This document shows positions 9,172-64,000 of a DNA stretch of 64,000 bases, in pieces; position 1 is the stretch's first letter, and every line of letters starts with the position of its first letter. The notes under the pieces are model-generated. The model did no database searches. It saw only the letters and a list, made by a program, of their open reading frames with translations, and was not told the DNA's origin. The position numbers and the translations under genes are program-made. Origin of the DNA: Henricia sp. BOLD:AAB3569 (Eukaryota > Echinodermata > Asteroidea > Spinulosida > Echinasteridae); NCBI GenBank assembly GCA_037783545.1, contig JBBELK010000984.1:310001-374000 (forward strand), written 5' to 3'.

Positions 9172-9259
9172 CCTGCAAATAAAACGGTAACACGTAGATT
9201 ACCTGCCGTTTGTGTTCACAGTTATCCCTTGTATACATTTTCTGTCTCTTTTCCAACAG

Positions 9260-31838: not shown

Positions 31839-31909
31839 TTATTGATACGATATTTCTGATTGAATCTGTTTAAACTTATTTATACACATTATACTGTATG
31901 TTGACTATG

Positions 31910-35870: not shown

Positions 35871-35970
35871 ATGTGGAAGGGGGGATTCTAGCTGTTTAAC
35901 ATTGCACATATATATGTCAAATTATTGCACATATATTTTTAACATCGCATACAACTTACTCTTTCGCATT

Positions 35971-37250: not shown

Positions 37251-37450
37251 TAGTTATCCTTTTTAACCAACAACTTTCGGGCAATTTTCTAAACAAATTT
37301 TCTAAACAATTAAAACCGTGAGTAGCTGCTCACTTTGTGAGACATGGCGTATGCCTCTACTCAGCACTCGGCCGTTTTCAAGCTAATTATTTTTCTACTT
37401 TTTATTTAACTCGCATCAACATGACTCTTTGGCATGAACAAGACTTTTTC

Positions 37451-37965
37451 ATTGATAATGTTCTTGCTTTTCTTGCCTTCTTTTGTTTTGACCCTCCTTC
37501 CACACAGCATGTCCGATGGTAATGGCCTCAGGTTCACTAATCCCTCAGGTTCATTATAGCGCAGCACCGGAAACGACGCGCGATAAAGCCACGAACTCGC
37601 TTCAACTAAACTCTTTCATTGAAAATGTTCTTGCTTTTCTTGCCTTTTTTTGTTTTGACCCTCCTTCCACACAGCATGTCCGATGGTAATGGCCTCAGGT
37701 TCACAAATCCCTCAGGTTCATTTTAGCGCAGCACCGGAAACGACGCGCGGTAAAGCCACGAACTCGCTTCAACTAGGCTCTTTCGTTGAAAATGTTCTTG
37801 CTTTTCTTGCCTTCTTTTGTTTTAACCCTCCTTCCACACAGCATGTCCGATGGTAATGGCCTCTGGTTCACAAATCCCTTAGGTTCATTATAGCGCAGCA
37901 CTGGAAGCGACGCGCGGTAAAGCCACGAACTCGCTTCAACTAGACTCTTTCGTTGAAAATGTTCA
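37451..37965 (+). repeat. 167-bp tandem repeat, three copies
   Basis: Units start at 37451, 37618 and 37785, with a fragment at 37952. Each carries GAAAATGTTCTTGCTTTTC, CCACACAGCATGTCCGATGG and GCAGCACCGGAAACGACGCG. Identity between units is high, so expansion is fairly recent. It adjoins the Penelope-like fragment. Confidence 0.9.
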
Positions 37966-44056: not shown

Positions 44057-44577
44057 CACACCAAGGTCATACGAAGCACGGACGGTTTAGTGGCCGACGC
44101 CGCACAGCACGACCAAGCAACCGCATGCTCAGCCACAGTCTTATCGAACGGGACCGCTAACCAAATACGAACTCAGTCTGATCTTTCGCACCAACCAGTT
44201 TACTCAGAACGCATCAGTCTATATTCGAGATCGCCCTTTACCATGGTCACCATTCGCCGCCCGGATATCGCTCGCAAAACGACACACCGAAGTGGACTTC
44301 ACTTGCCTTATTTATAGAACTTCGGGAGCTAGTTACATGAATAAATATGAGGAGAGAACCAATGGAAAGGCGCCAACGTGTCCTCTTGCCACATGGTTGG
44401 GATCAAGGCTAGCGTCATGTATGAGCCTTGGGCAAAAGGGTAATAGCTAAAATAAGAGGTCAGAGCTGAGTCAGCAATCCTCTGAAGGACTATGACTTAG
44501 CCACGCCCAATCTTGATGCACTCATTCAGTTATGTACGAAGACCCAGAGGGGACATTTAAGTAATTTTTTTTTTTGT

Positions 44578-45425
44578 TAATACGTACGTACGTGATAATA
44601 CTACGTACGTACGTGATAATACTACGTACGTACGTGATAATACTACGTACGTACGTGATAATAATACGTACGTACGTGATAATAATACGTACGTACGTGA
44701 TAATTTAATACGTACGTACGTGATAATTTAATACGTACGTACGTGATAAATTAGTACGTACGTACGTGATAAATTAGTACGTACGTACGTGATAAATTAA
44801 TACGTACGTACGTGATAAATTAATACTTACGTACGTGATAAATTAATACGTACGTACGTGATAAATTAATACGTACGTACGTGATAAATTAATACGTACG
44901 TACGTGATAAATTAATACGTACGTACGTGATAAATTAATACGTACGTACGTGATAAATTACTACGTACGTACGTGATAAATTAGTACGTACGTACGTGAT
45001 AAATTAGTACGTACGTACGTGATAAATTAGTACGTACGTACGTGATAAATTAGTACGTACGTACGTACGTGATAAATTAGTACGTACGTACGTGATAAAT
45101 TACTACGTACGTACGTGATAAATTAGTACGTACATACGTGATAAATTAGTACGTACGTACGTGATAAATTAGTACGTACGTACGTGATAAATTAGTACGT
45201 ACGTACGTGATAAATTAGTACGTACGTACGTGATAAATTAGTACGTACGTACGTGATAAATTAGTACGTACGTACGTGATAAATTAGTACGTACGTACGT
45301 GATAAATTAGTACGTACGTACGTGATAAATTAGTACGTACGTACGTGATAAATTAGTACGTACGTACGTGATAAATTAGTACGTACGTACGTGATAAATT
45401 ATCACGTACGTACGTGATAATTTAT
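44578..45425 (+). repeat. Tandem array, 21-23 bp unit, about 37 copies
   Basis: The first six units are 21 bp (TACGTACGTACGTGATAATA(C/A)) and the rest 23 bp (core TACGTACGTACGTGATAA followed by ATTAG, ATTAA or TTTAA). One unit near 45057 carries an extra ACGT, and units near 44825 and 45130 carry single changes. The last unit is flanked by TATCACGTACGTACGTGATA, a small palindrome. The same unit, inverted, forms the array from 63793. Confidence 0.95.
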
Positions 45426-45900
45426 GCACGTGTCTAGTGTAGGCATGCCCTATATTCGGTTTCAGCTCGAGCTATGATCACTGAAGTGCAGTTCTCCTTA
45501 AAATGGATAAAGAAAAGGTAAGTTTAAAGGTTCTGAAACTAGAAACATTAAGCCCCTTTCTCGTGTATTTGTTTGGTAAAATATTCGGTCATGACATGCG
45601 GTTCATCAAAAATTTGAGCTTCGGAATACAGCGCGAACTATACAGACATGACACTTGACAGACCAACTCGACCGTTGCCAACATATCCTGCCCACCATGT
45701 CCCCGTGTCATGCCCCCGTGTCGTGTTCCCGTTACCAATTCCCCATCAGCCACTATACGTAGGGCCTACCCTTGGCTGGCTTTGTTACATTATTTCGTAG
45801 TCTAATTATTGACAAGACTGGACAGTAAGAAAGGGCTTAGGTTAGGGGGCGAATTTGCATACTTTTCGTGAAGACATTTCTGTGTAGGCTATGCCAGCCA

Positions 45901-46471
45901 TTAAAGGGCCCCTTATTTAGGATTTTTATCAATGAAATATATCCTTTAAAACCACTCTAAAAATCCTATTTGAAGCTTGCTTTGGGGGTTAAAACAAAGG
46001 TTTTTAGTATTTATGCTAATGCGAATATGCATATTCATGACCAAGGTCACGATGTCACAAGAGGCAAACACAGGAAAATCACATTCAACTGTGCACAAAA
46101 GATTCCACTTTTTTCTCAATTTTCCTGAAACTTTTGTAATCCATGGCTGTTTGCGAGTTTGTTTTACATGTTGCCTGCTGTAAGCCATGACAAAACTGGG
46201 GGTAGAAACTGCAGCAATTTGCCACAAGTCCAACTTCAAGTCTTATGTTTTTCTTAACTTTTCCTTTCTGTCTTCCTTATGTGATGCACTCAAAACAGCG
46301 CCCTCTGTCTGTGATTTATTGCAATGAAATCTTCAAAGTTGAAAAAGGCCATGCACCTTTTATTGATTTTTACATCCAAACGAACAATAGTATGTCTTGC
46401 TGAACAAGTAATCCGTCATTATGAAGCAAAGCTTAGGCACAAAGTTGTTTAGCATGTCACAGGCCCTTTAA
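45901..46471. mobile_element. TTAA-flanked element
   Basis: TTAAAGGGCC at the left and GGCCCTTTAA at the right, with TTAA at 45901-45904 and 46468-46471. No transposase. Its right TTAA is also the left TTAA of the next element. Confidence 0.65.
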
Positions 46472-46977
46472 AGGAACACACCGGCTTTGTTCGGCTATTT
46501 TGGGGTCGAAATAGACCCATAAATCATTATGGAGCTGAGGTCTATCCAAAATAGACTGATGAGAACAAAAAATTTGCCCTTTCGAAAAAATTTCAAATAA
46601 CAAAAACAAAAACGAAACCAAAAATCAAGGTCACGTGATTGATCCGAACCATAAATCTGGTTTGGATAAATCATTTGTTCTTGAAGTTAGTTTTGTTTAC
46701 ATTCCTATGGAAGTTTGGTGCAGAACTGTATATGCACCAAAGTCAGCTCTGATTTTCTTTTTCAATATAGGGGAGAGTGGTGTTAGTTGGAACATATTTT
46801 CTTCCATAGCTTTTTTTGTTATGCAATCCTTCCACTCATATGTTGCTAGTATATTAGCAATAGCTATCCACCATATTTTCCACAGCACATTTGCTACAAT
46901 CCTTTTAAAATAAGAGATAAAGTTTAAGAAGATAAAAAGTAAAAAATTTAAAGTTTAGAATAAACTAGTAATTTCAC

Positions 46978-47160
46978 TGTACAGTTGTACAGTGAAACCT
47001 GCTATAGGCCACCTTGATAAACAGGCCACCTGTTTATAGTGGCCACCGATCTTTGGTCCCAAATATCATTATAATGCTTATAAACATCTATAAAGAGGGC
47101 TCTTGCTTATAGTGGCCCTTTTTTACGGTCCCGAGGGTGGCCGCTATACTAGACAAGTTT
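46978..47160 (+). mobile_element. GTGAAACCTG/GGCCACC repeat
   Basis: ACAGTGAAACCTGCTATAGG, then serial GGCCACC and TATAGTGGCC words, ends in GGGTGGCCGCTATAC. The start resembles the ends of common invertebrate Tc1/pogo-like MITEs. Confidence 0.45.
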
Positions 47161-48159
47161 CGGTGCATTATAAATAAGCAAAAAGCGAACTAAACTGCTT
47201 GATGCATAAATTGTTTTAGTGCTCTTGTCTTGTGCAGTTGTTAATGACCCAAAGGGTTTATTAGCGCCCCAATTTACAGCTGAACTGTCAGTCTTGCTAA
47301 TAAGGGTTATATTACAGTGTTTAAATGACCGCATACCATGTTCAACTTACCCCATAGCTGAGGTAAGTCGGAAAAGCTGACATGGTCATGTTCAAGGTGG
47401 ATTGTACGAGAAACCATTAACGAATCCTAACATTTTATAGGCTCTATTTGTAGCCGACATATGTATGCTTAAAGTGGTGTTCTTGTTTTTTCTTTTAAAA
47501 ATTCTGTTCGTGTTTTATAGACGATTTTGTGAAAATTATTTCAACTAACCCCACTCCCCTTATTTATTACGCATGTTACAATCAGGCCATTTTCGTGGAA
47601 CAACGAACTATCCACAGGCCCGATTACTGCTCCGCGGTGTCATCATTTTTTACAGGGCATTATCAGTGTACAGGACCCCTAGCTGACTTTAAACGTATGT
47701 TTCAGATTGGCCAAACCTACTTTTAATCCCTAATTTATAAATATGTCAGGGACGCTTGTGTTCTGTGTTACTTGACCCTGGCGGGTACACACACAAGTTT
47801 TTAGTTTCGTTGCAACAAAATTGGGATTTTGTTTTATACTTTTACTCATGTCATGTTATTTTTCATAAAATTTGACTCGTGTTTTCCAAATGATACACTG
47901 TGTTTCATTTGCTCAACACATATTCCTTTGGGAAAAAACAGTAAACAGCCATGTTAGCCTGTAGCCTAGATATCAACAAAATACTACTTCATCTGATGAA
48001 AGAGGGACGAACTGTGGTGTAACTTTGAGTAGACTGGCAACACGCGTGTGTCTTTAGCTTTGACCATTTTAGATACCGATTTCGCTCATATCGTTTACAT
48101 CGAACTTGGATGGATTCTGAAGTTATTTTGATTGTTTTGTAACATAAGCCTACCTATAT
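47161..48159. other. No supported gene
   Basis: Unrecognised AT-rich sequence with short open frames. Confidence 0.4.
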
Positions 48160-48411
48160 TTTATGAGTATTTTACAAAAGAGGCTATTTATTCAGGTTAT
48201 GAAACCAAGTTAAACATAACTATGAAAAATGGAACATAAAATGTTGACTAGGAGAGTGACAGCGTGACAGTGCACGCGCTGTTTTTTAAACCACTTTTGC
48301 GAGGGGAAAATTAGTGGTTTTGTACCTTTTTGGTGCCTTGAGAGGAGAATAATAGGTTACGGTTTGTTATTTTCTTTAGGAATGTAGGGTTTTTAATTGC
48401 GGTCGGTTTGC

Positions 48412-48490
48412 ACCAGCTTCGTGGTCTGGTTGGAAGAGAGCTCGACTTGCAATCATAGGCCCTATAGTCCCTGGTTCGAATCTCAGCAGT
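48412..48490 (+). repeat. tRNA-like SINE head
   Basis: A box-like GTGGTCTGGTTGGAAGAG, an anticodon-arm-like CGACTTGCAATC, and B box GGTTCGAATCTC are spaced as in a tRNA. The acceptor ends do not pair well. SINE remnant. Confidence 0.5.
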
Positions 48491-49045
48491 GTTGTATGGG
48501 ATTTTTAGAAATTTCTCGATTTCTTCTTTTTCTCAAATATAGTTAGAGTAAGAGTTCTGACTATTTTAAAGATTGTCACGTGAGAAGTATCAGTCATTAG
48601 CTTTTTAGAAGTATTGCGGAACAAAAGGAGAGGGCGCAATTTTATTTGGGTATGTTTTTTTTAACAATTGTATTTCTTTCCAAAAACATGATTTACATGT
48701 CAGTTGCAATTATAATACAAGAGACAGAATTAGAAAAAGAAAAAAAATGAACGCAAAGTAAAAAATGCAGTTATATTGCATTTTATTCGATTTTATACTC
48801 ACTTCAAAGTGTCCTATATTGTGTCCGCCATACTTCAAAAAGGCTAATTGGAAACTTAGTAGACTCTATTCGGGTTAAAAAATGTTGAAGTACCCCACGC
48901 TGCGGTGTAAAAAAAGTAATAGCGGTTGGTCTAACCCCCATGCATATGTTGCATACTAATGTGTTTTGTCGATAGCTACCTGAACATTACCCCACACCAC
49001 ACTCTCTCCTCAATTAATAGTGAAAAGGGAATATGACTCAAAGGG

Positions 49046-49098
49046 GATTCGAACCCGCAATCTTTCGGATAGTCCCACGTCTTAACCACTATGTAATA
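49046..49098 (-). repeat. tRNA-like SINE head on the minus strand
   Basis: The minus strand reads TAGTGGTTAAGACGTGGGAC and then GCGGGTTCGAATCCC, giving A and B boxes of a tRNA-derived promoter. There is no intact cloverleaf. Confidence 0.5.
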
Positions 49099-49182
49099 AC
49101 TCCCGAGGGCGCTATATAGAGAGTATGAATATTCATTTACAATGCACCAATCAGAAACCTCGATGAAGCCCTATATCATATA

Positions 49183-49937
49183 TGTGACCCGCTCTGCAAA
49201 AAAGGGTCTTAAGTCGCGCTGGCTAGTATTCTTTTTGCGACCATGAAAAGAAATCCGCGGCAAATCCACGCTCAATAAAATACCAAAACACAATGGAAAT
49301 TCCTGGCGGTGCCCAGATACCGCCTGGAATGTCTGTGTTCCTCCTGGAATGTCTGCGTTACGCCTGGAATTTCTTTTGTGTTTAGGTATTTTAATGATGA
49401 GCGTAGAAATGCCACAGATTTATTTTTATTGTCGCAAAAAGAATACTAGCCAGCGCGACTTAAAGTTGCATTGCCCGTGTTTCGGTGAAAGGATTAAAAA
49501 AATTAATTTACACAAGCGAACGAATTTAGAAAGCTTACGTGTCTCTGTAACGAAAAATATCAAAAACTTACATTTCCGACGTCGGGAATTGGAGATACAA
49601 GCCTTTTTCTTGAAACGTGCTCCACATGTTGTACATGTGCGCGTACGCTCATATGTACATAGTATGTGTACAATGTACACATGTACGCGCACATGTACAT
49701 TTACGTCATAACCCTGTCGATTAATAACCTGCCAGCCATTTAATAATTTCTTGTTTTTAATCGACTGGCATTAGACCTTGACGGATTTTTGCGTTCTTGG
49801 TACCAAATGAAAGCTGATAACTTTTTCTATTCTAGAAAAATACCTATTTATCTTCTTTTTTTTTAAATTGACGCCCAAATCGGCCAAAACACGGGCAGTG
49901 CAACTTTAAGACCCTTTTTTTGCAGAGCGGGGTCACA
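49183..49937. mobile_element. TIR element, TGTGACCCGCTCTGCAAAA ends
   Basis: Inverted ends TGTGACCCGCTCTGC and GCAGAGCGGGGTCACA continue through AGGGTCTTAAGT and ACTTTAAGACCCTT. An inner inverted pair (CGCGCTGGCTAGTATTCTTT) at 49216-49250 and 49430-49463, and a hairpin at 49622-49700, lie inside. No transposase. Confidence 0.8.
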
Positions 49938-50186
49938 TGTGATACGGAAATAAATATCGCCCGCGGGTATGCGGTGCTATATGGTTCATGCAGCTAGCGT
50001 GGCATGAGATCTATCCAAAGTAGAAGCTGCCAAGAGAACAGCAAATCGTATGCGACAAATGTGAATGGGTGGTAAAGCGTATAACCCGACTTGACTATTT
50101 GGGATAATTTGAAGGGGTTTTTTCCTAGTTAATTACGGGACATTTTGATAATTTTTTTGTTCACAAGGACCATCAAAAAAATAATA

Positions 50187-50525
50187 TAGAGCCTTTGCAC
50201 GGTGGTCATGACAGGGGGCAGTCTATGATTGTCATCGCATGAGTATAGTGCTTTGTGGCACTTGTTCTCTTGAGCAAGTCACTTACTTAATCACACTTGT
50301 TCCGTCCTTCAAAAGGGATGTAAAGCCGTTGGTCCGGTATCTTAAGATCACACGGTATTCTTTCGGGAAGAGCAAGGGTAGGGATTCCCCGGTGTCTCTG
50401 GTCGTTTCTAATTCAACTTAGAAGTTGATAGTTATTCGAATATCTATGTTAATTGATCCCATTCCTGTAATTGGCGGTCCTTCTGCTGTTGGATGTGATC
50501 AATAAATAAAATAAATAAAGTAAAT
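50187..50525 (+). mobile_element. Short retroposon sharing a LINE tail
   Basis: Begins TATAGAGCCTTTGCACGG and ends CCTGTAATTGGCGG...GCTGTTGGATGTGAT followed by an AATAAATAAAA run. The tail matches the 3' end of the LINE at 15035-16010. This is the arrangement expected of a non-autonomous retroposon mobilised by that LINE. It cuts the TTAA element on its left. Confidence 0.65.
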
Positions 50526-50540
50526 AGAATCATCTGTATA

Positions 50541-50978
50541 TGGGTCTGTCCACAGTAATGGGGTACATTTCTGTAACATTCAAGATCTTAGGTCCGTGTT
50601 CACTTCAAATGTCTTAATTTTATCTTTAAATTATCAAGCTAAACTGAGGAAATAACTTTTTCACCAAGGAGTAAGAAAAATAGTCCTACAACATACATTT
50701 CTGAAAACCCCGTGCACAAATTTTCCTATTACGCGTGTAACAAAGACGGAAAAAAATGTCACAAAATGGTCTGTCCACGTTACCTACGTAATAGGAAAAT
50801 CTGTACACAAGCTTTTCAAAAATGTATGTTGTGGCAGAAATTTTTTACCCTTTTGGGCAAAAGTTATCTCCTGAGAACAAAACAAGGACATTTCTTTAAT
50901 TCTGAGATAAACTAAAGACATCTGAAAGGAATTATTGACTTACTTTTCAAATGTACCCCATTACTGTGGACAGACCCA
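50541..50978 (-). mobile_element. TGGGTCTGTCCACAGTAATG hairpin element, copy 3
   Basis: Complete, with both terminal repeats. Same orientation as the copy at 32995-33414. Confidence 0.85.
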
Positions 50979-51180
50979 TATGTATAGCAACGCGTTGGTA
51001 TAGGCCTATGGGCCAATTTGTACATTTGTCGAAAATTGAACATTTAGGCCTACACGCAGATAACCTTGTACACCCTTTTCCGCGCGCCGCCACGTGCTTT
51101 TGGCGCATTGGCGCGATGGGCGGAAGCACAGTTTTAAAGCTGAAAACCAGATATGAAACAGCTAGTATCCCCCCGTCCGA

Positions 51181-51795
51181 ATGTTTGAAGTTTTCCTGTT
51201 TATCATGTGTATGTGTCTATACAACACCATCACAACTTGTTTTCCACAAAAAAAATCGACAGGCTTTTGCTTAAAACGCAAAGCAGTTCCGACCCTCTTC
51301 ACCCGAAATTCTGAAACGCTCGAGGTCACTTGGTTTGTTTATCAACAGGGTTTTGACGTTATCCTGAGAAACATACAGAACGGCCTGTGCAGTATTGAAT
51401 GGAAAATACACGAGGTGAATGTTTATCATGCCTGTTTTGTCCTTCAAAAAACAAACGTGAAAAACACTTCATGTAATACGACAACAATCTACTATTACCT
51501 GTTTTGTGAAAAAACGATGAAATTGTGGCTCACAATGAGCTCTTTTGAAGTAAATACTGGTGCATTGCAACGGGTGGTTTTGTTACGGAACGAACGGCAT
51601 TCACCGCGGTCTGTGTTCAGCATGGACCGGTACCTCCGGTCCCTGCGGCCCACGTGTTTGAAAATCGGCCGGTACAAGTTAGAATGAGCGACTCATTTTT
51701 CTCTCTCTCTTGGTAATAGAAAAGAAAATCTTTCTGCTCTTTTTTTTAAATAGTGTCTGGTAAAACATACAACCACGCAGCTACTGGGCATATCT
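51181..51795 (+). repeat. Dispersed ~600-bp repeat with a conserved exon-like frame, copy B
   Basis: Inverted relative to 35339-35870. On this strand AATCGACAG (a possible acceptor ending at 51262) precedes GFCLKRKAVPTLFTRNSETL. This copy has an extra ~80 bp (51425-51530) compared with copy A. Confidence 0.6.
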
Positions 51796-51799
51796 GTGG

Positions 51800-52244
51800 C
51801 TTTTTGGACCAACAAAATTCTTCAAAAAACACCATCTAACACTGAGACGGTTTTCCATTTTTGTGTTGCGTGTAAACGTATGGAGCTAACAATCGTGTTG
51901 ACTTCTCTTTCTCAGGATTGCGTCACGGGGTCACGCGCATATCATGAATACCTAATGAGCGTTTCAGAAATCGCGAAAATCTCACTTCGAAAAACGCACT
52001 TTTGCTTGCAATTTATCAACTTAAAACAGACAATTGAAAAAAAAAATCCACGTCGGCAAGAGGGATGTTTGGACTATCGAAAAAAGCCTAACTGCTAGTT
52101 TTTCCTTTCAGGGGGATTCTAGCTGTTTATGTAAAAATGGCCGAAACAGCGTGTTTGTTTCTAACAAACACTAGATTTCTAGTTGCTATTGCTTCAGTTA
52201 TTATTCTTCAAAACAAATTAGCACAACAAATTATTTTATTGCTT
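51800..52244. other. No supported feature
   Basis: Likely intron or leader sequence of the kinase gene; nothing recognised. Confidence 0.35.
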
Positions 52245-52592
52245 GGTTCACGGTAGCCTTGTCCAAGGGCTATGAAATTGTGTGAATCCGTGAAGAATTT
52301 GCATGTATGCTGTGCAGCGAAAGTGCGCCATCCCGCGGTGAATTGTAGCCAACTGCAAAATAGTCTGGTTACCAAAATATCTTGGTCTGAATCCTGACTT
52401 CCCGCGCGAGGCTGGATCGTACTCGCGCGTGAAGTCAGGATTCAGACCAAGATATTTCGGTAACCAGACTATTTTGCAGTTGGTTATATACAATTCACCG
52501 CGCGATGGCGCACTTTCGCTGCATAGCATACATGCAAATTCTTCACGGATTCACACAATTTCATAGCCCTTGGACAAGGCCAGGTTCACGGT
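52245..52592. mobile_element. Foldback element with a 10-bp target duplication
   Basis: GGTTCACGGT is present at 52245-52254 and 52583-52592, immediately outside ~150-bp inverted arms. The arms begin GCCTTGTCCAAGGGCTATGA and include TTTGCATGTATGCTGTGCAG and ACCAAGATATTT. A 9-10 bp duplication with long arms suggests a Mutator-like origin. It lies about 90 bp upstream of the kinase coding exon's acceptor. Confidence 0.85.
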
Positions 52593-52714
52593 TGCAGGGG
52601 CTTTAATAATCTCACAAGTTTGTGTATATTACGTTATGTTTGTTTTGTCGAACAGCACTCGTATACTCTTTTTCTTTAGATTGATGAGCCCAGTGCAGCA
52701 GTAAAGACAATGAC

Positions 52715-54862
52715 ATGACATCTTCCAAAGCTGCAGATAAAAGAAAGCGCCTGTTGTCTGCATTAAGGAAACAGCTCAGAAAGGCCAACGCTGAAGAAAC
52801 CGATGATGAAATGTCGGATAAAGAAATACCACACGCTTCTAAGAAGAGCAAGTCCATGCTGGGAAACAAGTACGCAAACAAACCAAATCGGATAATTGAA
52901 ATAGGTTGGATACACGATGGACAACAGGTACGCATGCCGACTGGTGGAGGAACAAGAAAAACCACCATATCTAAGGATGGTACGGCCAGTGCCATTTCTG
53001 AAGAAGCAACGAAGCTCTTTTTCCCCGACGGCGAATCAAAAAAAGGAATTAAGCTGGATGATGTCGATTTGGAAGTTTGCGATTTCAGTATGAGAACATG
53101 CAATCCAGCTCAAACTGTAGGAGAAGCGTACGAGATCGAAAAGCCAAGCGGCGTCATGAGATATTACCTGTCCTCTACAACGAAGAGTGAATGTAATACC
53201 AAATCTCTTGACGGAAGACAAAGCTCATCATCTCTGAGAGTAAAACAGAAAGACTCACCAGGTCTTCGTACCAGCAGTAAGAAAAAAACCTTAAAGAAAA
53301 ATCTGTCAACGTCCCATTCCAATGCCAAACAAGAAGCACGACCCTTTGTTGAAACCGAAGCTCCTTCTACCGGTCTATACCCCGTAATAAAGGGAAAGAT
53401 TTGTCTCTCTCGTGAACCACTTCAAGTACAATATTTCAAAGAAATTGAATCATCTTGCCAAGAGGTGACATGCATGCTGTCGGCGAATTCAAGAAAAGAA
53501 TGTATGCCCATCGAACTTGACGTTGACGTTAGTGGAGCTAGTGTCCTGTCTGATCCACTGGAAAATGGCTATGTTGTTAGTGGAGTGTCCAAAAATGGGG
53601 TCTGCTTTGTTCGGCGCATAGAAATAGGAAGCGACAATGTGGTGTCATACGAGTTACCAGCGAAAGACAAGGCCGAATCTTCAGATCCCAATCTCATCTT
53701 ACATCAGCCAAATGAGGTTTGGGGATACGAGGAAGGGAAACTCGTACTGGGGGTTATCTCGCCCAATCACAATCATGAGGGACTTGCATTTGAGTGGTTT
53801 TGCGATGAGAAAAGTATATATTCTGCAGGGTGCATTCTAGTAGTAGACAAGCCGGGAAATTACTACTGTCAAGTAAAGGCATTTACAGAAGAATTAGATG
53901 GCAGTAATTCCAAGGAAATTTCCAGAGCGTCAAATTCGGTACAAGTAGTGGAAGTCACAATCCCCCCCGCGCGGACAAGCAATATTGAAGTGAGCCATTG
54001 GCCAAGGCACGAGGAAAGCGGTCTCCCCCAGCAGCTGGAAATGACAGATCTTTCAATCGACTTTAAGGAACCCATAAATCATGGGTCTTTCGGCGAAGTG
54101 TTCAAAGGCAAATACATGAGCACTGTTGTGGCTGTAAAGAAGATAAAATCAAAACAAGGAAAACGTCCAGACAAGCTTATCGTTAAGGAAGCACTCATCC
54201 ATCAACAGATCGCGCATTCCAATATTGTTGACTTTATTGGCACTTCCCTGGCTGATTCTCACGTTTTCATAGTCACCGAATTCATTGACGGACAAAATAT
54301 GGAAGATGTGATTTATGCGCCAAAAATATCGGTTGATAAAAAGAACAAAGTCAGCATCGCTGTTGATGTGCTTAAAGGAGTAAAATACCTACATGAGCAC
54401 ATCCCTCAAATCATCCACCAGGATATTAAGCCAGCAAACATCATGATCGATAAAGTGTATGTGTCTGCAAAGCTGTGCGACCTTGGCCTGGCAAAGATCA
54501 GGTCCTTTGATGTAGCTTCAACAACCTCGGGGGTACACACCGTTGGAACACCTGAATACATGCCACCCGAGACACTGGTGGGAGGCGAGAAGGCCAATAC
54601 ATGTACCGATATGTGGTCTGTGGGCATAACCTTGATGGAATGGTTTTCGGGCACAGATGCATGGGATCTGCAGAACCAAGAAGACGAACCTCTCGTATAC
54701 ATCCGACGATGCATGCAGAAGCTGGAAGTTCCACAAGTTCTGCACAAATACAAACTCATACTGCTGCGACCTTGCGCCAGGTATAACCCCGCAGACCGCC
54801 CGACAGCGAGGCAGTTGCTGAGGCTTTTTCAGTGTCCCTCCTGCTCAAAGGAATTCTTGTAA
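52715..54862 (+). CDS. Protein kinase with N-terminal GGGTR/LFFPxG region (proposed cargo gene)
   Basis: A single open exon of 715 codons. The ATG at 52715 is preceded in frame by TGA at 52685 and an acceptor-like TTTTTCTTTAG ending at 52679. Residues 1-60 are basic with a possible nuclear signal. Residues 60-130 carry RIIEIGWIHDG, MPTGGGTRKTT and LFFPDGESKKG, which I recall from predicted proteins of corals, sponges and fish without a known role. Around 345-420 a WFC...GNYYCQV pattern looks Ig-like. The kinase domain spans about 450-710: GSFGEV, VAVKK, KEALIHQQI, HQDIKPANIM (HRD arginine replaced by Q), CDLGLAKI (DLG for DFG), GTPEYMPPE and DMWSVGI. All catalytic residues are kept, so activity is plausible. 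It has no relatives nearby and lies within the array-bounded element. Confidence 0.88.
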   Translation: MTSSKAADKRKRLLSALRKQLRKANAEETDDEMSDKEIPHASKKSKSMLGNKYANKPNRIIEIGWIHDGQQVRMPTGGGTRKTTISKDGTASAISEEATKLFFPDGESKKGIKLDDVDLEVCDFSMRTCNPAQTVGEAYEIEKPSGVMRYYLSSTTKSECNTKSLDGRQSSSSLRVKQKDSPGLRTSSKKKTLKKNLSTSHSNAKQEARPFVETEAPSTGLYPVIKGKICLSREPLQVQYFKEIESSCQEVTCMLSANSRKECMPIELDVDVSGASVLSDPLENGYVVSGVSKNGVCFVRRIEIGSDNVVSYELPAKDKAESSDPNLILHQPNEVWGYEEGKLVLGVISPNHNHEGLAFEWFCDEKSIYSAGCILVVDKPGNYYCQVKAFTEELDGSNSKEISRASNSVQVVEVTIPPARTSNIEVSHWPRHEESGLPQQLEMTDLSIDFKEPINHGSFGEVFKGKYMSTVVAVKKIKSKQGKRPDKLIVKEALIHQQIAHSNIVDFIGTSLADSHVFIVTEFIDGQNMEDVIYAPKISVDKKNKVSIAVDVLKGVKYLHEHIPQIIHQDIKPANIMIDKVYVSAKLCDLGLAKIRSFDVASTTSGVHTVGTPEYMPPETLVGGEKANTCTDMWSVGITLMEWFSGTDAWDLQNQEDEPLVYIRRCMQKLEVPQVLHKYKLILLRPCARYNPADRPTARQLLRLFQCPSCSKEFL

Positions 54863-55320
54863 AGTAACTGAACCTATATAGCCTAAGAACGATCTTGTCA
54901 AGCGTCTCGCATAGATGTAACACGGGCCCCGCATTCCGGTTATAGTTACTTCAAATCTGATTAAACGGGTGAGAAATACAATGTGATCGGTACACATTTT
55001 GAAAGCATTTTCGCTAAAATATTTGAAACATACATGTAACTATTTTACTCTTTTCTGTGTTTTAACTATAGGAGTTTTTGTTTATTTATGAAACTTTTCG
55101 ATCAAGGATAATATATCTAAATAATCATGGAATAGCAATCAAGTTGTGGATTTATAGTACATGTAATTAAAATCAGTTTGTAACTTTGCTGCATACATAA
55201 GCGACGCTAAATTACAGTTTACTAAAGTATTCCATTTTATTGGTTTCTTGTCGAAAGTCTGTAAATCTTTCAATGATTGATTCGAAGTAAATCACTCAAG
55301 TATCGCCCACTAATAGACTG
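54863..55320. other. 3' flank of the kinase gene; nothing further
   Basis: AT-rich. ATTAAA-like words near 54960 could serve as a poly(A) signal, but none is convincing. Confidence 0.35.
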
Positions 55321-55454
55321 TATCGAATAGCCGCCATTTCGTGGGGCAGTTTCTTTGTTCCTTGAGGACATGCAGGGTTGGACATATTGTGCTTTCATTG
55401 TTTAACGGTTTAAATAACAAAAAAGGTGCCCCACGAAATGGCGGCTATTCGATA
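55321..55454. mobile_element. MITE with 28-bp ends
   Basis: TATCGAATAGCCGCCATTTC and GAAATGGCGGCTATTCGATA are perfect inverted ends, with CGTGGGGCA facing TGCCCCACG. Confidence 0.85.
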
Positions 55455-55983
55455 CGGCTTATAAAAAGAGGGTTCAGACGACTCTACGCCGGAGTCGAGT
55501 AGAATCGATTCCACCTTAGAAATCGGACTCGCAATTCCAGATTTGGCGGAATCGATGGCCGATTCGCTTTCAGCAAGATTAGTTTTCGTGCCGTGGCCAG
55601 ATAATTTCGTTGTTGTGACTAAGATTCGAACCTGAGTCTTAAGACTCTTCTCGATATGACCGGTGATGAAGGAATTTCGTGTTCACGTTCGCGTTTTACG
55701 CGAATTCCCTATTAGGGAAGTATATGGATGCATGCAAACGCAAATGTGAACGCGAAATGGTTTAAGCCCTAGTTATATTTTTAGGAGGTCTCGGAACCCA
55801 TTTTCGAAATTTGGTCACGGCAACAGAGTTATCTTGCCACGAGAGTCACATTTGTGGATTTTTTTTCGTCTGTTTTAAGATTTCATCAAAGTAACGATCA
55901 AGTGTTTAAAGTATTTCGCGTTCACGTTCGCGTTTTATGTGCATCTAAACTTTCCTACATGCAGTATCGTCAACGTAAGGCTG

Positions 55984-56179
55984 GTTTCCATATCGTCGCA
56001 ACAAACGCAGACACACAGTGACGCAAACTAGACGTAAGGTTCGACGCAAACATTAACGCAGACAGTAGGCAAAGTTGAACCAACATTTAACCTTGCCGAT
56101 TTTTTACCGTCGGCGTTTGTTGTGCAGTTGCTTGAATTTAATCCGCGTGCGTATGTTCTGTTGTTACGATATGGAAACT
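55984..56179. mobile_element. MITE, GTTTCCATATCGT ends
   Basis: GTTTCCATATCGT at the left and ACGATATGGAAAC at the right. ACGCA words are frequent inside. Upstream, TTCACGTTCGCGTTTTA occurs at 55681 and 55920. Confidence 0.7.
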
Positions 56180-56546
56180 ATTTTTTCAACGCGCTACATG
56201 TAGTTAATGTTTCTCGCGAAAAGTTGAATCGATTCTGAATGGAATTTCGATTCTCTTTTTGGAATGTTTGAGTCGTCCAAGCCTATATAGCTGTTACTGT
56301 ATTTAATGCATCCATCACGTGAAAGTTGGAGCAACGAAACGTGGTGTTGTTGAAAAATCGCCCCACCAGGACAGGAGTTGAACCAGAGACTTGTACAGGT
56401 TATGCTAGATGCTGTCAAAGCTGCAGAGCTGAAAATTCTAGTATATTCCATAAAATAAACACGGAGTATTTTTTTGCACATTTTAAATCACACACGATTG
56501 CAACATGTGGCGTTTTGTATGTATAAAGTTGAATATTGCATGTGAA

Positions 56547-57286
56547 TAGACCAGTTGCGTGATATATTTGCATAAATCATAGAGTCCCACCCTCGCGCTC
56601 GCGTACGAGTGAGTCAATTAAGCACCAGACTAATCTGGAACATCGGGCCGTTTCCAGGTGGTGCAAGCTGATACATAGCAACAAGCGCGAAAGTGTGTGC
56701 GGTACCTGGAATACCTCGCACATTACTCTATGCATTTTAAAGCTGAAATGAACATGTTAAGACATGTACTCATCGTAAAATTTCGTCAAAATAACGAAAT
56801 AGAACGTGTTTATTTTTTTATTAATTTGTTTACTTTAGATCAATGTCAACTTTGAAAGCTGGAACGTTTCCAAACTGCAATGATGCAAGCGGAGAAACGA
56901 TTTTAGGTTATGTGACTGGATTGAAGTTGCCGATCAACATGTTCGATCAACATGTTCCATCAACCTGTTAGATCAACATAGTCCAGCTTAAAAATACATA
57001 GAGTAATGTGCCAGATATAGCATGGTGCTTCACTCACGTCCACTCGTACGCTAGCGCCTTGCCAGCAGCCACCCAGTTGAAGCAAAATGGTCCCTGATGG
57101 CAGCGGTAATACATAATGTATAATGGCAACAGCGCCAGGAGCACCCCACAGGGTGGACAGTATGTGCGTTATATTATAATCCACCATTACTTATTGTTAA
57201 TTGTTATTTTTGTTATTAATTGTTAATTATTGTTATTAATTATTATTAATTATTATAATACTAATTATATCACGCAACTGGTCTAT
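56547..57286. mobile_element. 740-bp TIR element
   Basis: ATAGACCAGTTGCGTGATAT and ATATCACGCAACTGGTCTAT are perfect inverted ends. Inner inverted pairs include ACATTACTCTATG with CATAGAGTAATGT, and CTCGCGTACGAGTG with CACTCGTACGCTAG. No transposase. Confidence 0.85.
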
Positions 57287-57639
57287 ACAAAGCACACATT
57301 TGAAATGATCAGTCGTGTTATGGGTGTTTTTAATCTCACATTATATTTAATCACAAAACGCAGTAATTCAGTGTAAGCGCTGACTGACATTGCCATCAGG
57401 CCCGTACCCGGTGTATGAGGGTGGAGGTGGGAGGTGTGTGGGGGTGGAGGTGGGTAGTTTGAGATGTGAACGGTTTCACGAGTACATTTTACAAACACTT
57501 GTTTTTTGTTACGTACCGCAAGTTACATGTAAGATAGTACATGTTGCATTCCAGTATTGTACTACACATGCATGTGCGAACGGAAAGGTTACACTCTGGT
57601 AGCGGGGTATGCTCTTAAGACGGAAAAATCTCCCCGCGA

Positions 57640-57960
57640 GCTTCAAGAGGTGGCGAATTCGGGAAACTCTTAGCACGAGTTTATTATGAGTGTATTATGA
57701 GTTTAGCGAGTTAACTATATACAAGTTATTACGAATTAGGCCAAAGTTTCCCAAATCAGTCATTGAGCTTAATACGAGCTTCCTGAGCTTACTGCAAGTC
57801 AGTTACTAGTCTGGCACGAGTTTGGTACGGGTTACCTGACTTCGGCATTTTGCGTGGGATTTGGCGCCAAACCATCCGGATTTTCAGTGACTCTTGCAAG
57901 TCGTGCTTGTAAGTCTTATAACTCGTAGACCACTCATACAACTCGTAACAATAAATATTT
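57640..57960 (+). repeat. ACGAGTT/AACTCGT word-dense stretch, left part
   Basis: CACGAGTTT, TACGAGCTT, GGCACGAGTTTGG, AACTCGTA and related words recur every 10-20 bases. The same words resume at 58430-58660, so the two parts may be ends of one element. Confidence 0.55.
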
Positions 57961-58272
57961 GTTATACCCCGTCTTGGAATACTGCAGTTTCATTGGTCCA
58001 GAACGGTCACATGTCCATGCGATAAAAACTCATCACCCCGCCGTATGCGAATTTAACTTCATATCACCCGGCCATACGCCCACTAGAGGCGCGCAACGCG
58101 CACGCACATCGCATTATTCCACACGCTGTGCGCCAAATCAACAAACTGGTACGCGTGCTACTTTCGCAATGTTAATGTTACACACGGACAGCTAGTAGTC
58201 CGAAGACTAGCGAAAGTGCATTCAGATCCACATTATTATGCTGTACGGAGACCAAGACGGGATATAACAAAA
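57961..58272. other. Interior between word-dense stretches; no gene
   Basis: Short open frame only; nothing recognised. Confidence 0.35.
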
Positions 58273-58408
58273 CAATTGTTGACTGGTGTGGTGTGCGTTA
58301 TGGGTTTTAACACCCTCTGGAGCTCATAGCACCCTCGGCGTTGCCTCGGGTGCTATGAGCTCCCTCGGGTGTTAAAACTCCATATCCCACACCACACCAG
58401 TCAACAAA
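58273..58408. mobile_element. Hairpin element
   Basis: CAATTGTTGACTGGTGTGGT and ACCACACCAGTCAACAAATG bound arms that continue through TTTTAACACCC and GAGCTCATAGCACCC. Confidence 0.8.
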
Positions 58409-58429
58409 TGTTTATTAAAACTGGTGTGA

Positions 58430-58660
58430 TATAGTGCTGTACGAGTTACGCAACACGAGTCATACGTGAGTTGCACGAGTTTGGTGCAAGTTGCTCACGA
58501 GTTGTCAACTCGTTGCCGAAATGTTTAACATGTTTAAAAATGTTGCCACGATTTGCGCGCTGCTACGAGTTGATAAGAGTTATTACGAGTTGTATCCGAA
58601 TTACACGAAACATCCCGAGTTGGCACACGGGGTTTCCCGAATTCATGAACTCGTGAAGCT
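58430..58660 (+). repeat. ACGAGTT word-dense stretch, right part
   Basis: TACGAGTTACGC, CACGAGTCATACGTGAGTT, TCACGAGTTGTC and TTACGAGTTG recur. See 57640-57960. Confidence 0.55.
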
Positions 58661-59785
58661 CCGGCCAATCACGGGCGAGATTTTTCCGTGTGTGAGAGAG
58701 CCCGGAAGAACAACCTCTATAGGCACTCGACACAAAAGTGGTGTCTCTTAGCAGTAAAACATGTGCGCTCCTAAAAACAAATGACAAGAGATGGATAACC
58801 CTCAACGAAAGTGCATACTGGAATGCAACCACAATGACCTGTTTTGTATAGGTATTAAAGTATAAGTTGTTTAACATTTTCGTGTTAAAGGCATTTGCCA
58901 ATCTTTTTCAATTTTGTTCAGCTCTGTTACATTCAAAAACAGTTTTATGTTATTTTAGGAAAACGAATCGAGAATGTAACCCAATTTCATGCACGTATAC
59001 AGTTGATGGAAATAGTACCCTTTGTTTAGACTTTGTAGTAGAAGATATTCGTCGGTGTTGGCAAATTTTGACTATACCTCCGCTTCGCTTCGGGATAGTC
59101 ACAGGCACTCTATTTCCCGATAAACAAATTGTTGTTGTTGCATACATATTAAAAAAAGGTTTGTTACGAAAATTTCACCCGTGTCAGCTCAAAATAATGT
59201 GCAATGTGCATTACTTCAATGGATGGTTGGTGGCGTATGTTGTTAAATACGATTTTTCAAAGGGATTATGAAAAGTCTGACGGAAAGTTAGTCACGTCAC
59301 GATATGGGCACATTTATCGTGACGAAGTTGAACCTGCAGGCTCAATCCCCAGTGGTACCATTATGTTAGGTTAAAATTGTGGGGGCGGAGCTTCCACCTT
59401 TCGGCCGGGGGGGGGGGGGGGTTTAAAGCCCAAGGGTAAACGAAGTTTTTTTGGGATTTATTTCGATATGTAGGCCTACAATTACTTTTATCCAGAACTG
59501 TCAATAAATCGTATAATGGACATGAAGAATGGAAAGGTAATATACTACCAAATGCGTGCTCCAGTGCCATGGTAAATTGGTCTAAACGTTCGCTAGTAAC
59601 CTAAAACACCCACTGCTAAGGCGCAGGGGAAACGTTCACTGGTTTTAGTGTCGACCCAGTAACCATGGCAACGCACAAATGGTGACGGAAGTTCAATTTA
59701 GTAATTTGTAAAACTAATGGATACATGGTAAACAAAATTGACATTGCTATCGGGAAAAACGGTTGCCTGTAACTAAAAAAGCTGT
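58661..59785. other. No supported gene; G run
   Basis: An open frame at 58867-59271 starts after TTAACATTTTC and has no recognisable domain. A run of about 15 G lies near 59407, and TAGTCACGTCACGATATG with ATCGTGACGAA near 59290-59320 forms a small hairpin. Confidence 0.35.
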
Positions 59786-59892
59786 ACAGGACGATTGCGT
59801 CCACTTGGACCATTGTGTCCGCAGATGTTTGTTCGGACACAATGGTGCGGACATAATGGTTATAGAGCGGACACAATGATCCTGTACAGCGT
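59786..59892. mobile_element. Small hairpin element beside the transposase 3' end
   Basis: GCTGTACAGGA and TCCTGTACAGC bound 107 bp with CCATTGTGTCCGC and GCGGACATAATGG phrases. It ends 25 bp from the transposase stop codon. Confidence 0.65.
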
Positions 59893-59916
59893 CAATATGG
59901 TTTATATTGAGTACAG

Positions 59917-62900
59917 CTACAATTCACGGTAGATGGCATCACGCAGGTAGAGATACACGTGGGTAGCTTCCTCTGCGTTCGATGGCAGACTGAGGTTGTT
60001 CTCCATCATAAGGTAACAGCATAACTGATAAACTATATTGCTGCTACACGGTCTCCCGTCCTTGAAAACACAATCTTCGATGCATACTTCAACATCATCG
60101 ACAGACACAGGCACAAGCTTATTCCTGGTGTTGTATAACTCCGGGGAGGTATACATTATGATTGGCTTCCCAGTCGGCTCAATCATGTTACGATGTCGCT
60201 GTAATCGATGACAGTTCCATGTTTGGGCGACCTCATCCAATTCTCTCTGAAAATAGTCAAAGGAACACTTGATAACTAATAAAGGCGAGGTATGTGGATA
60301 TGTTTCCTCCACTTTTAGGGACTGTGAGGCCCAGTTAAAGCTAGGTTCACACATTCCCGATGTTTAAGCCGAATTGCCACGAATAGCAATCCTTGAGTAA
60401 ATCGGGGAATGGTTCTTGGCTGCCTCGGGATGATTGTGGTTGTTCGTTGAAAGATCGGGAAGCGCCCCGACAATTTTGGACATGTTCAAAATTGTCGGGG
60501 TGATTCGGGAACAAATTTCTTAGTTCATTCTTGTTTAAGCCCCAGTCACACCAAGGTCCCGAACCATCCCGGGCTGAAATATTGCCGATCCGGGGTCCTA
60601 TCCGTGTTGGTTCCTGGTTGGTTCGTGTTGGGTCCGGAGTAGTTCTGGATGGTACTGGATGAATCGGGATAGTCCTGGGCGGTTCGGGAGGTCACCCCGA
60701 CTTTTTAAAACTGTTTAAGCCTAGGTCACACCAACGCCGGATACAACAAGGATTATCCCGGATAGCCACGGACCCAGAATGACCCTCTTCCGGGGCGAAT
60801 CGGGATGAAATCGTCCAGACCGTCCCCTCGACGGTGGAAAAACCCAGACACCCCCGTACTGTCCCGTACCATGACGGACCACACGGAAACAGTACGTTTT
60901 ACCAAGGATTGACTACGGACCCAACACGGACCCAACACGAACCACCCCGTACTACCACGGACCCAACACGTTTTACCACGAACTGCCCCGGACCCAACAC
61001 GAACTGTCCCGAACTGTCCCGGAAGAGCTACGGATGCACCCTGAACCATCCCGGACCCAACACGGAACCAACACGAACCGCCACGGAGACTATAAATACA
61101 GTTGCGTTTGTCATTGGTTTTCACTTTTCGACAGGACTTTGTTGTGTCCGGGGAGGTCCGGGATGGTAGGTGGCGACAACGTGTTGGGAAAATTATGCCG
61201 TATCGCCAAGTATCGCCAAGCATCATCACGTTGCCACTACGGATTCACTACGTACTGTCCCGAACCCAACACGAACCGAACACGAACCATCCCGAAATCA
61301 ACTTCTATCTAACTGAATAGCTAAGCCCCCATAGCTGTTAAAATAACTGTCACTTTGTTTACTAATGCAATATTGTATGCAGGGGAGCTCATTAAATGTG
61401 CGTGACTGACGTTACAAAAAAGGGACTTGCAAAAAAATCAGTCATCTTTATTTTCAATTTCTTCTCAAACTAATGATACATTCAAAATGGTTATTCTACC
61501 CCTCAAAATAGAAGAGTTGGACCTAACAAACACACCATTTGGAGTCAGAAATATTGCATCAGTATATGTGTACACATGAAAATATGCGTGACTGACGTTA
61601 CATGTGACTGACGTTACATTTTCTGTCATTACAACTTATAACAAAAAAGTGGATACCACAATACCTACAAAACGGACAATACAAAGTGTCCTATACAAAT
61701 TTACAACCTTAAAGGCATACTTTAACCATCCTAGGTAGTTTCTAATAAATTTGGGGTTTTATTTTTTCCCCCTCATGTCCACCTATTTGCGGAATTGCCC
61801 AGCATAGGTTTGATTAAAAGGACACGGCTTTGTTGGGCTATTTTAGGCTCGAAACAGACCCATACATTTTTCTGAAAGTCTTTCCGAAATAGACGAAAGA
61901 GAACCTGAAAATAAACCACCAAATATTGGGCCGTTTTTTAGCAATTTTCAAAAAGTCAAGGTCACGTGACTTTTCGGAACCAGATTCTGGTTCCGAAAAG
62001 TCACGTGGTCTTGTGAGTCAGTTGTATTTCCAGCCGTATGGCCGTGTGATACACAGTTTATTCCTGAAGTTTATTACTGCAGTACTGCATCAAATTCAGC
62101 TCTGATTTTTTTCAAAATAATTATGAGTATTTGACAAAAGAGACTATTTATTCAGGTTAGGAAACAAAGTTAAACATAACTCTGAAAAATCGTACATAAT
62201 ATTTGGACACAAAGTCCAAGGAACCGAAGCGAGTTCCACCGTGGACAGTCTACCGGACAATGTGACTTTTAGCCCCACGGCACACAAACATTGCCCGCCT
62301 AAACCAGTAGTGCTGTTGAACTACGTTCGTGAAGACAAACCATGAATGTCAGCTCCTCTACAGAAAAACGGAAAAACCCATTCAGTCGTCCAGGCTGCCC
62401 AGTGAAATCTTCAGCAAAGAATGAGAGATATCCAAAGCAAAAAGCTGCCAAGTGAAAAGCGAATCGTTACCGACAAAGTCGTGAGTCTAGTGCGACAGTG
62501 AACGGCTGGTAAAGCGTATAACTCGACTATTGACATTGTTTATTAATTTTAAACTGTTGTGGTTAATTACGGGACATTTTGACCATCTTTGTTTCACAAG
62601 GACCATTAAAAAACTATTGTCAAAGATGCTGTATCACTAAATTACGTAAACAGTAGGCCGGTGTGTCCCTTTAATAACAATACCATTTCAAAAGGTTTGA
62701 AACCACAAAGTTGTTCGACCTAGCAACAAGTATTGTATGCCAATGAACTGCAACTATTGACATCGAATTGCATGAAGCAGGTGAATAAAATAGCCCGTAA
62801 ATTTGAATACATTTAATACGAAAATGGATTGTGCACAATTTCTGTGAACAGAACCATTGTCAAAATATTCATAATTACAAAAGCGGTTTGTGTGCAATTC

Positions 62901-63747
62901 TTGATTAACTTACCTGTATTAATGCCATGAAGCAGAACTGAATTAGACTTTTATCAAGGAAATGTCCGTTGAAGTCCCCATCATCTTTGAGTTCAGAAAA
63001 TATGTTCATCCAAAACTGTGCACTTTCCTTTCGGAGGATGCCCCACCATGCCTCGATACGCTGATTTGCTATGCTCTGACCGTAGACAAAGCTCTTTTCA
63101 CCGGCCAAACTATCTTGGTGATTTCTTCTGAGGAACCTTTGCATAGTTCGGACCGTACTATTTTCAGTTCCCAAGTCTGCACGAACTCTACGTGGGCATC
63201 CACATTCGTCGATCGCAGATCTAATGAAGTATCCAGCAATGACCCTGGGATTACTGCTAGTGTGGTGGGCTTTTAGCCAGACTATTTTTCGCGAGAAGCC
63301 GTCGATGCATCCATTAATACAAATACCGTAAGGCTTCAGTTTGTCGTATGAGTCAATATGCCAAGTAAAGTTTGGACCAACACCTCTATATTGCCTACGC
63401 TGGAGACGTCTTCGACGCCGCTTATCTACCCCTTCTGGATCCAAAATGGCAAGGAGGTGTCTTGTAGTATCTCTAGACACCCGAAGTCCATTCGCTACAC
63501 ACTTTGAATGCATCCACCGATATCCGTGTAATTGTCCAGATTCTTGTAGTGCGTCCAAAATAAAAACGGCCACGTCAACTACGTTTGAATGTTTACGACG
63601 ATACAAACTGAGCCCCTTTAATATACGTTTGAGATGCCTTAGACTGATGATTACTCGATGTTTTGCAACTAAATAATACAACGTTTCTTTTTGGTTGAAT
63701 CCTAATTCAAAATACAACTGCACAAGACTCTCTCTGTTCGCTGCCAT
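59917..63747 (-). CDS. Integrase-like DDE transposase, two exons, apparently intact
   Basis: Exon 1 is 63747-62914 (278 codons, ATG start). Its donor is a perfect GTAAGT. Exon 2 is 60246-59917 after TTTGACTATTTTCAG, and joins in phase 0 (ALIQ then RELDEVAQTW), giving 387 residues. Residues 1-50 look like a helix-turn-helix. The RNase-H fold carries WHIDSYDKLKPYG (D132), RADLGTEN (D191) and NQRIEAWWGILRK (E232), a rve-type DDE triad. An arginine-rich stretch (107-118) precedes it. Exon 2 carries the conserved tail with CHRLQRHRNMIEPTGKP. Proteins of this form occur widely in corals, molluscs and fish as unnamed integrase-core proteins. I do not assign a Repbase family (Ginger- or IS3EU-like are candidates). 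The start codon is 44 bp from the right array, so its promoter must lie in or next to the array. The intron (2.67 kb) holds other repeats. Confidence 0.88.
60340..61310. repeat. CCCGAACC/ACACGGACC word-dense region in the transposase intron
   Basis: Three start-like phrases, GGTTCACAC, AGTCACACCAAGG and GGTCACACCAACG, occur near 60346, 60546 and 60727. From 60560 to 61310 words such as CCCGAACC, GGACCCAACACG, ACGAACC and their complements fill the sequence. Word orientation flips between the 60550-60700 and 60740-61310 halves. No gene inside. Confidence 0.55.
61321..61813. other. Intron sequence with repeated GTGACTGACGTTACA
   Basis: GTGACTGACGTTACA occurs three times (about 61401, 61588 and 61604), the last two almost adjacent. 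Otherwise unrecognised. Confidence 0.5.
61814..62674. mobile_element. TTAA-flanked 861-bp element, intact copy
   Basis: TTAA at 61814-61817 and 62671-62674 bound ends of the type AAAGGACAC(A)CCGGC. The broken relative at 46468-50185 matches its left, middle and right parts in order. It lacks a transposase and sits in the transposase intron. Confidence 0.7.
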
Positions 63748-63792
63748 TTATACCAATAGATCCGTACAGTGATAGGCGAGTACTTATTATTA

Positions 63793-64000
63793 TCACGTAC
63801 GTACGTATTAAATTATCACGTACGTACGTATTAAATTATCACGTACGTACGTATTAAATTATCACGTACGTACGTATTAAATTATCACGTACGTACGTAT
63901 TAAATTATCACGTACGTACGTATTAAATTATCACGTACGTACGTATTAAATTATCACGTACGTACGTATTAAATTATCACGTACGTACGTATTAAATTAT
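63793..64000 (-). repeat. Inverted tandem array, 23-bp unit, nine copies to the window end
   Basis: Perfect repeats of CACGTACGTACGTATTAAAT followed by TAT. On the minus strand this is the same unit as the left array (ATACGTACGTACGTGATAAT), reading inward. Units are identical to one another, unlike the slightly varied left array. The outer end is not visible. Confidence 0.95.

Follow-up and report, generated by a model that had tools for sequence, protein, structure and literature searches.

We analyzed a window of 64,000 nucleotides, the whole stretch considered here, from the genome of the sea star Henricia sp. BOLD:AAB3569 (bases 310001-374000 of contig C984, in an assembly of 740.7 Mb and 2104 contigs). 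Its right-hand part is occupied by a large element of 19,843 bp, extending from window position 44535 to 64377, with the right part read past the window end from locus L003 and stretch L033, which reach beyond the right edge. The element carries long tandem arrays near both ends in inverted orientation, a two-exon transposase gene beside the right array and, between the arrays, a gene whose product combines a protein kinase domain with a domain named GGGTR. With TA-ended termini, a 6-bp target site duplication, inverted arrays, an intact transposase gene, a convergent accessory gene and a second copy elsewhere in the genome, we conclude with high confidence that the 19.8-kb element is a DNA transposon, complete and of the IS3EU/GingerRoot type. 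An earlier note on this DNA had proposed a giant transposon bounded by inverted arrays, and the termini, the duplication and the second copy support that proposal.

Architecture of the element

The hexamer GTTATG is found directly outside both termini (44529-44534 on the left and 64378-64383, beyond the window, on the right), forming a perfect 6-bp duplication. The inverted termini begin TACGAAGACCC, and the ends read TACGAAGACCC...GGGTCTTCGTA at 44535 and 64377, the terminus also being written as TACGAAGACCCAGAGGGG. On the left (44535-44576, forward strand), the terminus consists of TACGAAGACCCAGAGGGGACATTTAAGTA and a T-rich stretch, its end base being where the C485 copy described below stops matching; its inverted counterpart on the right ends at 64377, and the T-rich run is slightly different between the two ends. 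TA ends and 6-bp duplications are the marks of IS3EU and GingerRoot (PMC10045372), and the window copy has both.

Inside these termini lie the subterminal arrays, whose unit is represented by the sequence TACGTACGTACGTGATAA. The left array (44577-45424, forward strand) holds about 37 units (Tandem Repeats Finder: 23-bp consensus, 37.1 copies, 96% match), and the right array (reverse strand) runs from 63789 to 64000 within the window, with 9.2 copies there, and continues to 64333, with 24 copies in full as read in L003. The two are mutually inverted, with the units of both pointing inward. Long inverted ends with internal tandem repeats, as present here, are a foldback-type architecture; foldback elements also include FB and the sea urchin TU. 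Searching the window for an 18-bp core of the unit with at most 3 mismatches yielded 85 matches, all within the two arrays, against 0.05 expected from shuffled sequence, and 34 of the 37 left units keep the core perfectly. Spacing in the left array is 21 bp in the outer five steps and 23 bp after that, with a single step of 27 bp, and the innermost left site (45397-45422) forms a 26-bp palindrome by eye. Both arrays are also extremely CpG-rich: their observed/expected ratios are 4.76 and 5.89, compared with 0.90 for the left flank and 0.96 for the interior of the element.

The transposase open reading frame (ORF) starts at 63747, 41 bp from the right array, and is read on the reverse strand. 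Exon 1 (62914-63747, 278 aa) ends in the donor CAG/GTAAGT and exon 2 (59917-60246, 109 aa and stop) follows the acceptor TTTTCAG, so that the two exons with their consensus splice sites encode a transposase of 387 aa. This ORF matches the Pfam integrase core domain PF24764 (E = 5.8e-26), a domain linked to IS3EU, and has sub-threshold matches to IS481 and IS3 (E = 2.7e-6 and 4.5e-6, respectively). Across 17 aligned transposase sequences including that of the window (alignment A1), residues D132, D191 and E232 do not vary and, judging by motif, probably constitute an intact DDE catalytic triad, as expected of IS3EU and GingerRoot; the N-terminus is variable across the aligned sequences. A protein database search returned 1419 relatives at E ≤ 0.001, and in a 121-row tree, with the best 120 of these relatives listed, the window transposase falls within a well-supported clade of 12 rows (100/91). 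A profile search of the PDB with the transposase gave no match at E up to 0.01.

Much of this layout had been recognized in the earlier note, with details that we now revise. Its inverted, inward-reading arrays at 44578-45425 and from 63793 to the window end are confirmed with refined coordinates, and the adjacency of transposase and right array holds at 41 bp instead of the 44 bp given. It had also taken the arrays to be the element ends and suggested extending the sequence past 64000; doing so revealed the outer edge of the right array (64333) and inverted ends with the 6-bp duplication, and placed the arrays subterminally, the true ends lying 42 bp (left) and 44 bp (right) farther out. The transposase is intact and integrase-like as the note had stated, with the single ORF seen there being only part of a protein that spans two exons.

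A second copy and sister elements in the genome

Searching the genome with the transposase gave a list of 73 matches, among them one (C485:112246-113085) that is 99% identical to the transposase of the window. It belongs to a second copy of 19,623 bp with termini at 111525 and 131147. This copy has the kinase flanked by inverted arrays, of 28 and 29 copies, that consist of the window element's unit, which is what the earlier note had expected of other loci with this transposase. Identity between the two copies, as read in three stretches, is 97.6% at the far end (4151 bp), 98.6% at the end with the transposase (2593 bp) and 99.3% around the kinase (4003 bp), and on both sides identity ends exactly at the terminus. 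The next-closest transposase in the genome is only 60% identical, and the window's family therefore comprises two copies among the listed matches.

We fetched the best 30 of the 73 transposase loci with 1.5-kb flanks (L003-L032) and counted an array wherever a unit of 20-23 bp recurred in at least 8 copies within 1.5 kb upstream of the transposase, a range from which more distant arrays would escape. Such an array is present at 16 of the 30 loci, which fall into six families (lettered A-F in this analysis), each with a different unit: family A (L003, L004) with a 23-bp unit; B (L005), C (L006, L007), D (L008-L011) and E (L014) with 21-bp units; and F (L020, L021, L023-L026) with a 20-bp unit. 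The units, despite differing by family, tend to contain a dyad that holds CG. The earlier note had proposed looking for arrays at other transposase loci; most of the arrays there have units other than that of the window. TACGAA or TACGGA termini could be read in all six families, in B, C, E and F from one end each and by eye.

One family D element on contig C829 was delimited at both ends (380136 and 407757); it is 27.6 kb long, has inverted arrays and carries GTTTCG outside both ends, a second instance of the 6-bp duplication. A GGGTR ORF lies between its ends, the interior having been read in part. At L011, also on C829 (185-558 and 920-1381), only about 0.3 kb separates two elements of family D: past the far end of the 27.6-kb element, the next one begins with its transposase end. 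Family F has its own peculiarities: C-rich low-complexity DNA separates array from transposase (L020-L026), and seven copies show a separate match, with one TAA, to residues 204-279.

The accessory gene and its recurrence

The accessory gene (52715-54862, forward strand) is an ORF of 715 aa convergent to the transposase, in agreement with the intact 715-codon kinase that the earlier note had placed between the arrays. Its product has a basic N-terminus, a GGGTR domain (residues ~48-155), a middle domain (~220-415) with no Pfam match and a protein kinase domain (449-703). The latter matches PF00069 (E = 9.6e-48), also PF07714 and weakly PF17667, with no alpha-kinase match in Pfam. The lysine, HQD and DLG motifs, functional motifs of kinases, are present. 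The kinase domain resembles many solved kinases in the PDB, CTR1 best, and structure prediction for the kinase was poor (mean predicted local distance difference test score 44). No Pfam match above cut-off was obtained for ten interior ORFs, out of 35 listed with at least 80 aa.

When the N-terminal 430 residues were searched against the protein database, seven matches were returned: four with the same kinase architecture, one of them from Lytechinus variegatus, and three of HECT type with the GGGTR domain. For one of the four, the source contig is equal in size to that of a 75%-identical transposase. A HECT-type member used as query gave 17 matches including itself. A tree built on the GGGTR domain (24 rows) groups the five kinase rows in a single clade (96/90). 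P0140 joins this clade (100/98), and its middle domain suggests a kinase-type protein that has been truncated; the GGG and its neighboring residues are invariant in 17 aligned GGGTR sequences. Comparing the two database lists (120 and 23 rows), we found two contig sizes, 59,600 and 245,806, that a transposase and a GGGTR protein have in common, with a 92-Mb chromosome as the third such pair. In 200,000 trials with jittered sizes, no trial gave two or more matches larger than 10 kb, and about 7% gave one or more matches irrespective of size.

Within the Henricia genome, the kinase query has at least 56 matches (62 of 100 candidates were scored, making these counts lower bounds), and 25 of the 56 listed cover the GGGTR region. 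For 20 of these 25 GGGTR loci there is a transposase at a distance of at most 30 kb, and in every one of the 20 the two genes are convergent on opposite strands (this count used 39 of the 73 transposase rows, the rest being second exons or weaker fragments). A random place would fall within 30 kb of a transposase with a chance of about 0.003 per locus; the 20 linked loci are not independent, because seven are near-copies from family F.

Among the 25 listed, the alignment extends into the query's kinase part only for the proteins on C984 and C485. Five sister ORFs (from families B, D and F, and two of the E group) all align with HECT-type GGGTR proteins into the C-terminal part, and two of the five have a Pfam HECT match, one above and one below the cut-off; three of the five stop short where the fetched sequence or the ORF itself stops. 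Since the sister ORFs are HECT-like and only C984 and C485 match the kinase part, a conserved accessory protein appears to have had its effector swapped for a kinase here, and the kinase gene is best read as the second gene usual in this lineage, its effector domain having been exchanged. The earlier note had left the kinase as cargo or an accessory function; the recurring linkage of its GGGTR domain to transposases favors the second and speaks against random cargo.

Other features of the window

Two repeats are nested within the element. The first, MITE-like (50535-50985), has copies outside the element, 94-96% identical to it, at 31906-32354 and 32986-33414; the three copies are 94-97% identical, and this 0.45-kb repeat matches itself inverted at about 69%. 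The second (51156-51795) is 86-92% identical to 35367-35897 outside the element. Farther left, Schlafen-like gene remnants or exons lie at 9148-13017 on the forward strand, with weak SLFN GTPase-like and group 3 helicase matches below Pfam cut-offs at 9148-10254 and no Pfam match at 11362-13017; a tRNA-like match lies at 11347-11419. We also observed a reverse transcriptase fragment (PF00078; 21587-22513, reverse strand) and tandem repeats of 202 bp at 33587-34150 and 167 bp at 37437-37964.

In the viral contigs scanned, the transposase and the kinase had no relatives, and the unit was nowhere matched exactly. A scan of prokaryote genome contigs returned L001 and L002; the latter, from a sponge symbiont bin, was rejected as a prokaryotic relative, being multi-exon and looking like host contamination. 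It contains a small inverted repeat with tandem units (3323-3431 and 3657-3761) near a broken transposase of the same family, probably host DNA, and was not used as evidence. PMC4255032 proved unrelated.

Discussion

Several observations weigh against the conclusion that this is a complete transposon of the IS3EU/GingerRoot type with a recurring layout. The superfamily placement, a probable one, draws on TA ends, duplication length, PF24764 and weak IS481/IS3 matches. In the C485 copy, the flanking hexamers (ATGTGG and ATACGG) are alike at only 4 of 6 positions and the kinase frame contains one TAA stop. At 14 of the 30 fetched transposase loci no array lies within 1.5 kb upstream (L012, L013, L015-L019, L022 and L027-L032, the last six being the most distant fetched); one of these, L016, has an array with a TACGGAG terminus on its other side. 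No TACG terminus was found in the 75 bases beside the array at L006, L008 and L014, and no transposase is listed within 30 kb of five of the 25 GGGTR loci (L038 at C1398:412053, C572:263764, C572:320110, C1186:144966 and C1287:150656); these lone loci may be solo, decayed or host-adopted copies. Finally, the presence of the two nested repeats means that the element is not brand new; it has probably been mobile recently.

The element shares with IS3EU and GingerRoot (PMC10045372), and with the IS3EU relative Styx (PMC10853768), TA..TA ends, a 6-bp duplication, an integrase-like DDE transposase without an HHCC motif and, as in some of them, extra genes. Unlike those elements as described in the available portions, the present ones have arrays of ~0.5-0.85 kb in their ends and lengths of 20 and 28 kb; Styx, with extra genes, has 36-bp terminal inverted repeats (TIRs) and a length of ~7.9 kb, one subfamily having an insertion flanked by a 32-bp tandem repeat (PMC10853768). 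The TACGAA/TACGGA termini resemble the TAYGG..CCRTA ends of fungal IS3EU, and fungal TET+ IS3EU likewise combine a transposase and a kinase gene in opposite orientations (PMC12730594). The fungal elements carry an alpha-kinase and a TET/JBP gene (PMC12730594), whereas here a PF00069 kinase sits on a GGGTR module with animal relatives and no TET was seen. Foldback elements share the long inverted ends, with internal tandem repeats in Galileo (PMC3688188) and Tetris (PMC4079207), but belong to other superfamilies (P and Mutator). In Galileo the tandem TIR repeats are reported to hold multiple binding sites for a transposase domain (PMC3688188); Tetris has ~220-bp repeats and 8-10 bp duplications (PMC4079207), and Tm1 has composite ends and a 9 bp duplication (PMC3169594). 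Searches of one open-access library, with Repbase entries and subscription papers outside their scope, turned up no account of terminal arrays in IS3EU elements, none of accessory genes of the GGGTR-kinase or GGGTR-HECT kind, and no paper joining IS3EU and HECT. What the earlier note did not recognize as already described therefore appears to be new as a combination, not in its single parts, because foldback arrays and the fungal IS3EU kinase are already published.

En/Spm is a two-protein system with serial subterminal binding sites, short and irregularly spaced motifs, in which TNPA binds the subterminal repeats. The present element has a similar two-protein plan, but its transposase superfamily differs and its units are arrayed in tandem. 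We propose that the transposase would act by DDE cut-and-paste at the TACGAAG termini and that the arrays would serve as serial binding platforms, with about two helical turns per unit, concentrating the transposase or the accessory protein on both ends and helping to pair ends 20 kb apart. A protein bound at the array would also regulate transposase expression, because the transposase ATG lies 41 bp from the array, where the promoter must lie. The GGGTR domain would be a shared targeting or partner module, and the C-terminal enzyme, HECT-like in sisters and a kinase here, would act on the transposase or host factors and permit transposition. Of these predictions, we consider the role of the arrays as binding platforms fairly probable and the accessory role of the GGGTR protein only slightly less so. 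To the full proposal we give about an even chance: that animals carry a lineage of giant IS3EU transposons whose family-specific 20-23-bp arrays serve as landing platforms with many sites, each co-evolving with its family's transposase or accessory protein, and whose GGGTR module couples transposition to host signalling via an exchangeable enzyme (a HECT-like ubiquitin ligase in most, a protein kinase here).

A variant of this proposal, possible but tentative, is that the accessory GGGTR protein binds the arrays and the transposase acts only at the TACGAAG ends. The two-gene organization at 20 of 25 GGGTR loci, the basic N-terminus of the protein and the invariant GGG and neighboring residues are consistent with it. 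Against it, the GGGTR core is conserved while array units vary by family, but the transposase N-terminus varies too, and neither protein is favored.

The arrays might instead be satellite-like expansions near the ends, kept by unequal exchange and without a role in transposition. Their copy number does vary between ends and copies (37, 24, 28 and 29), neighboring units are locally alike, and 14 of the 30 transposase loci lack an upstream array in the stretch considered; a precedent exists in the foldback element Tetris, which seeded satellites (PMC4079207), and two oyster satellites (PMC8268682) and half of a Tribolium repeat (PMC5844308) resemble IS3EU. Against this, six families keep a 20-23-bp array in the same place with different units, which suggests selection on the layout, and the core is perfect in all but three of the left units. 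On balance we regard functionless arrays as unlikely, and prefer the binding platforms.

It is more doubtful still that the kinase is passenger cargo benefiting the host and not an aid to transposition. Only the window family's two loci align to the kinase part, as such cargo would suggest, but the protein's N-terminal domain is the module tied to transposases at 20 loci, the five kinase-type proteins form a single clade, and all TET+ IS3EU families in one fungal study pair the transposase with an oppositely oriented alpha-kinase (PMC12730594). That a satellite lies at both places by chance, beside a transposase and a kinase that are separate genes, is refuted by the perfect 6-bp duplication, the inverted termini and the second copy elsewhere.

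The element provides a complete, duplication-bounded example of a very large DNA transposon build in an animal, and the families of this one genome form a natural series that keeps the plan but varies in array unit, terminus and effector domain. Two questions thereby become testable: what long subterminal arrays contribute to transposition, and for what reason transposons of eukaryotes carry enzymes such as kinases and ubiquitin ligases. A minisatellite of its own would also be spread by each family, and new satellite DNA might arise from it.

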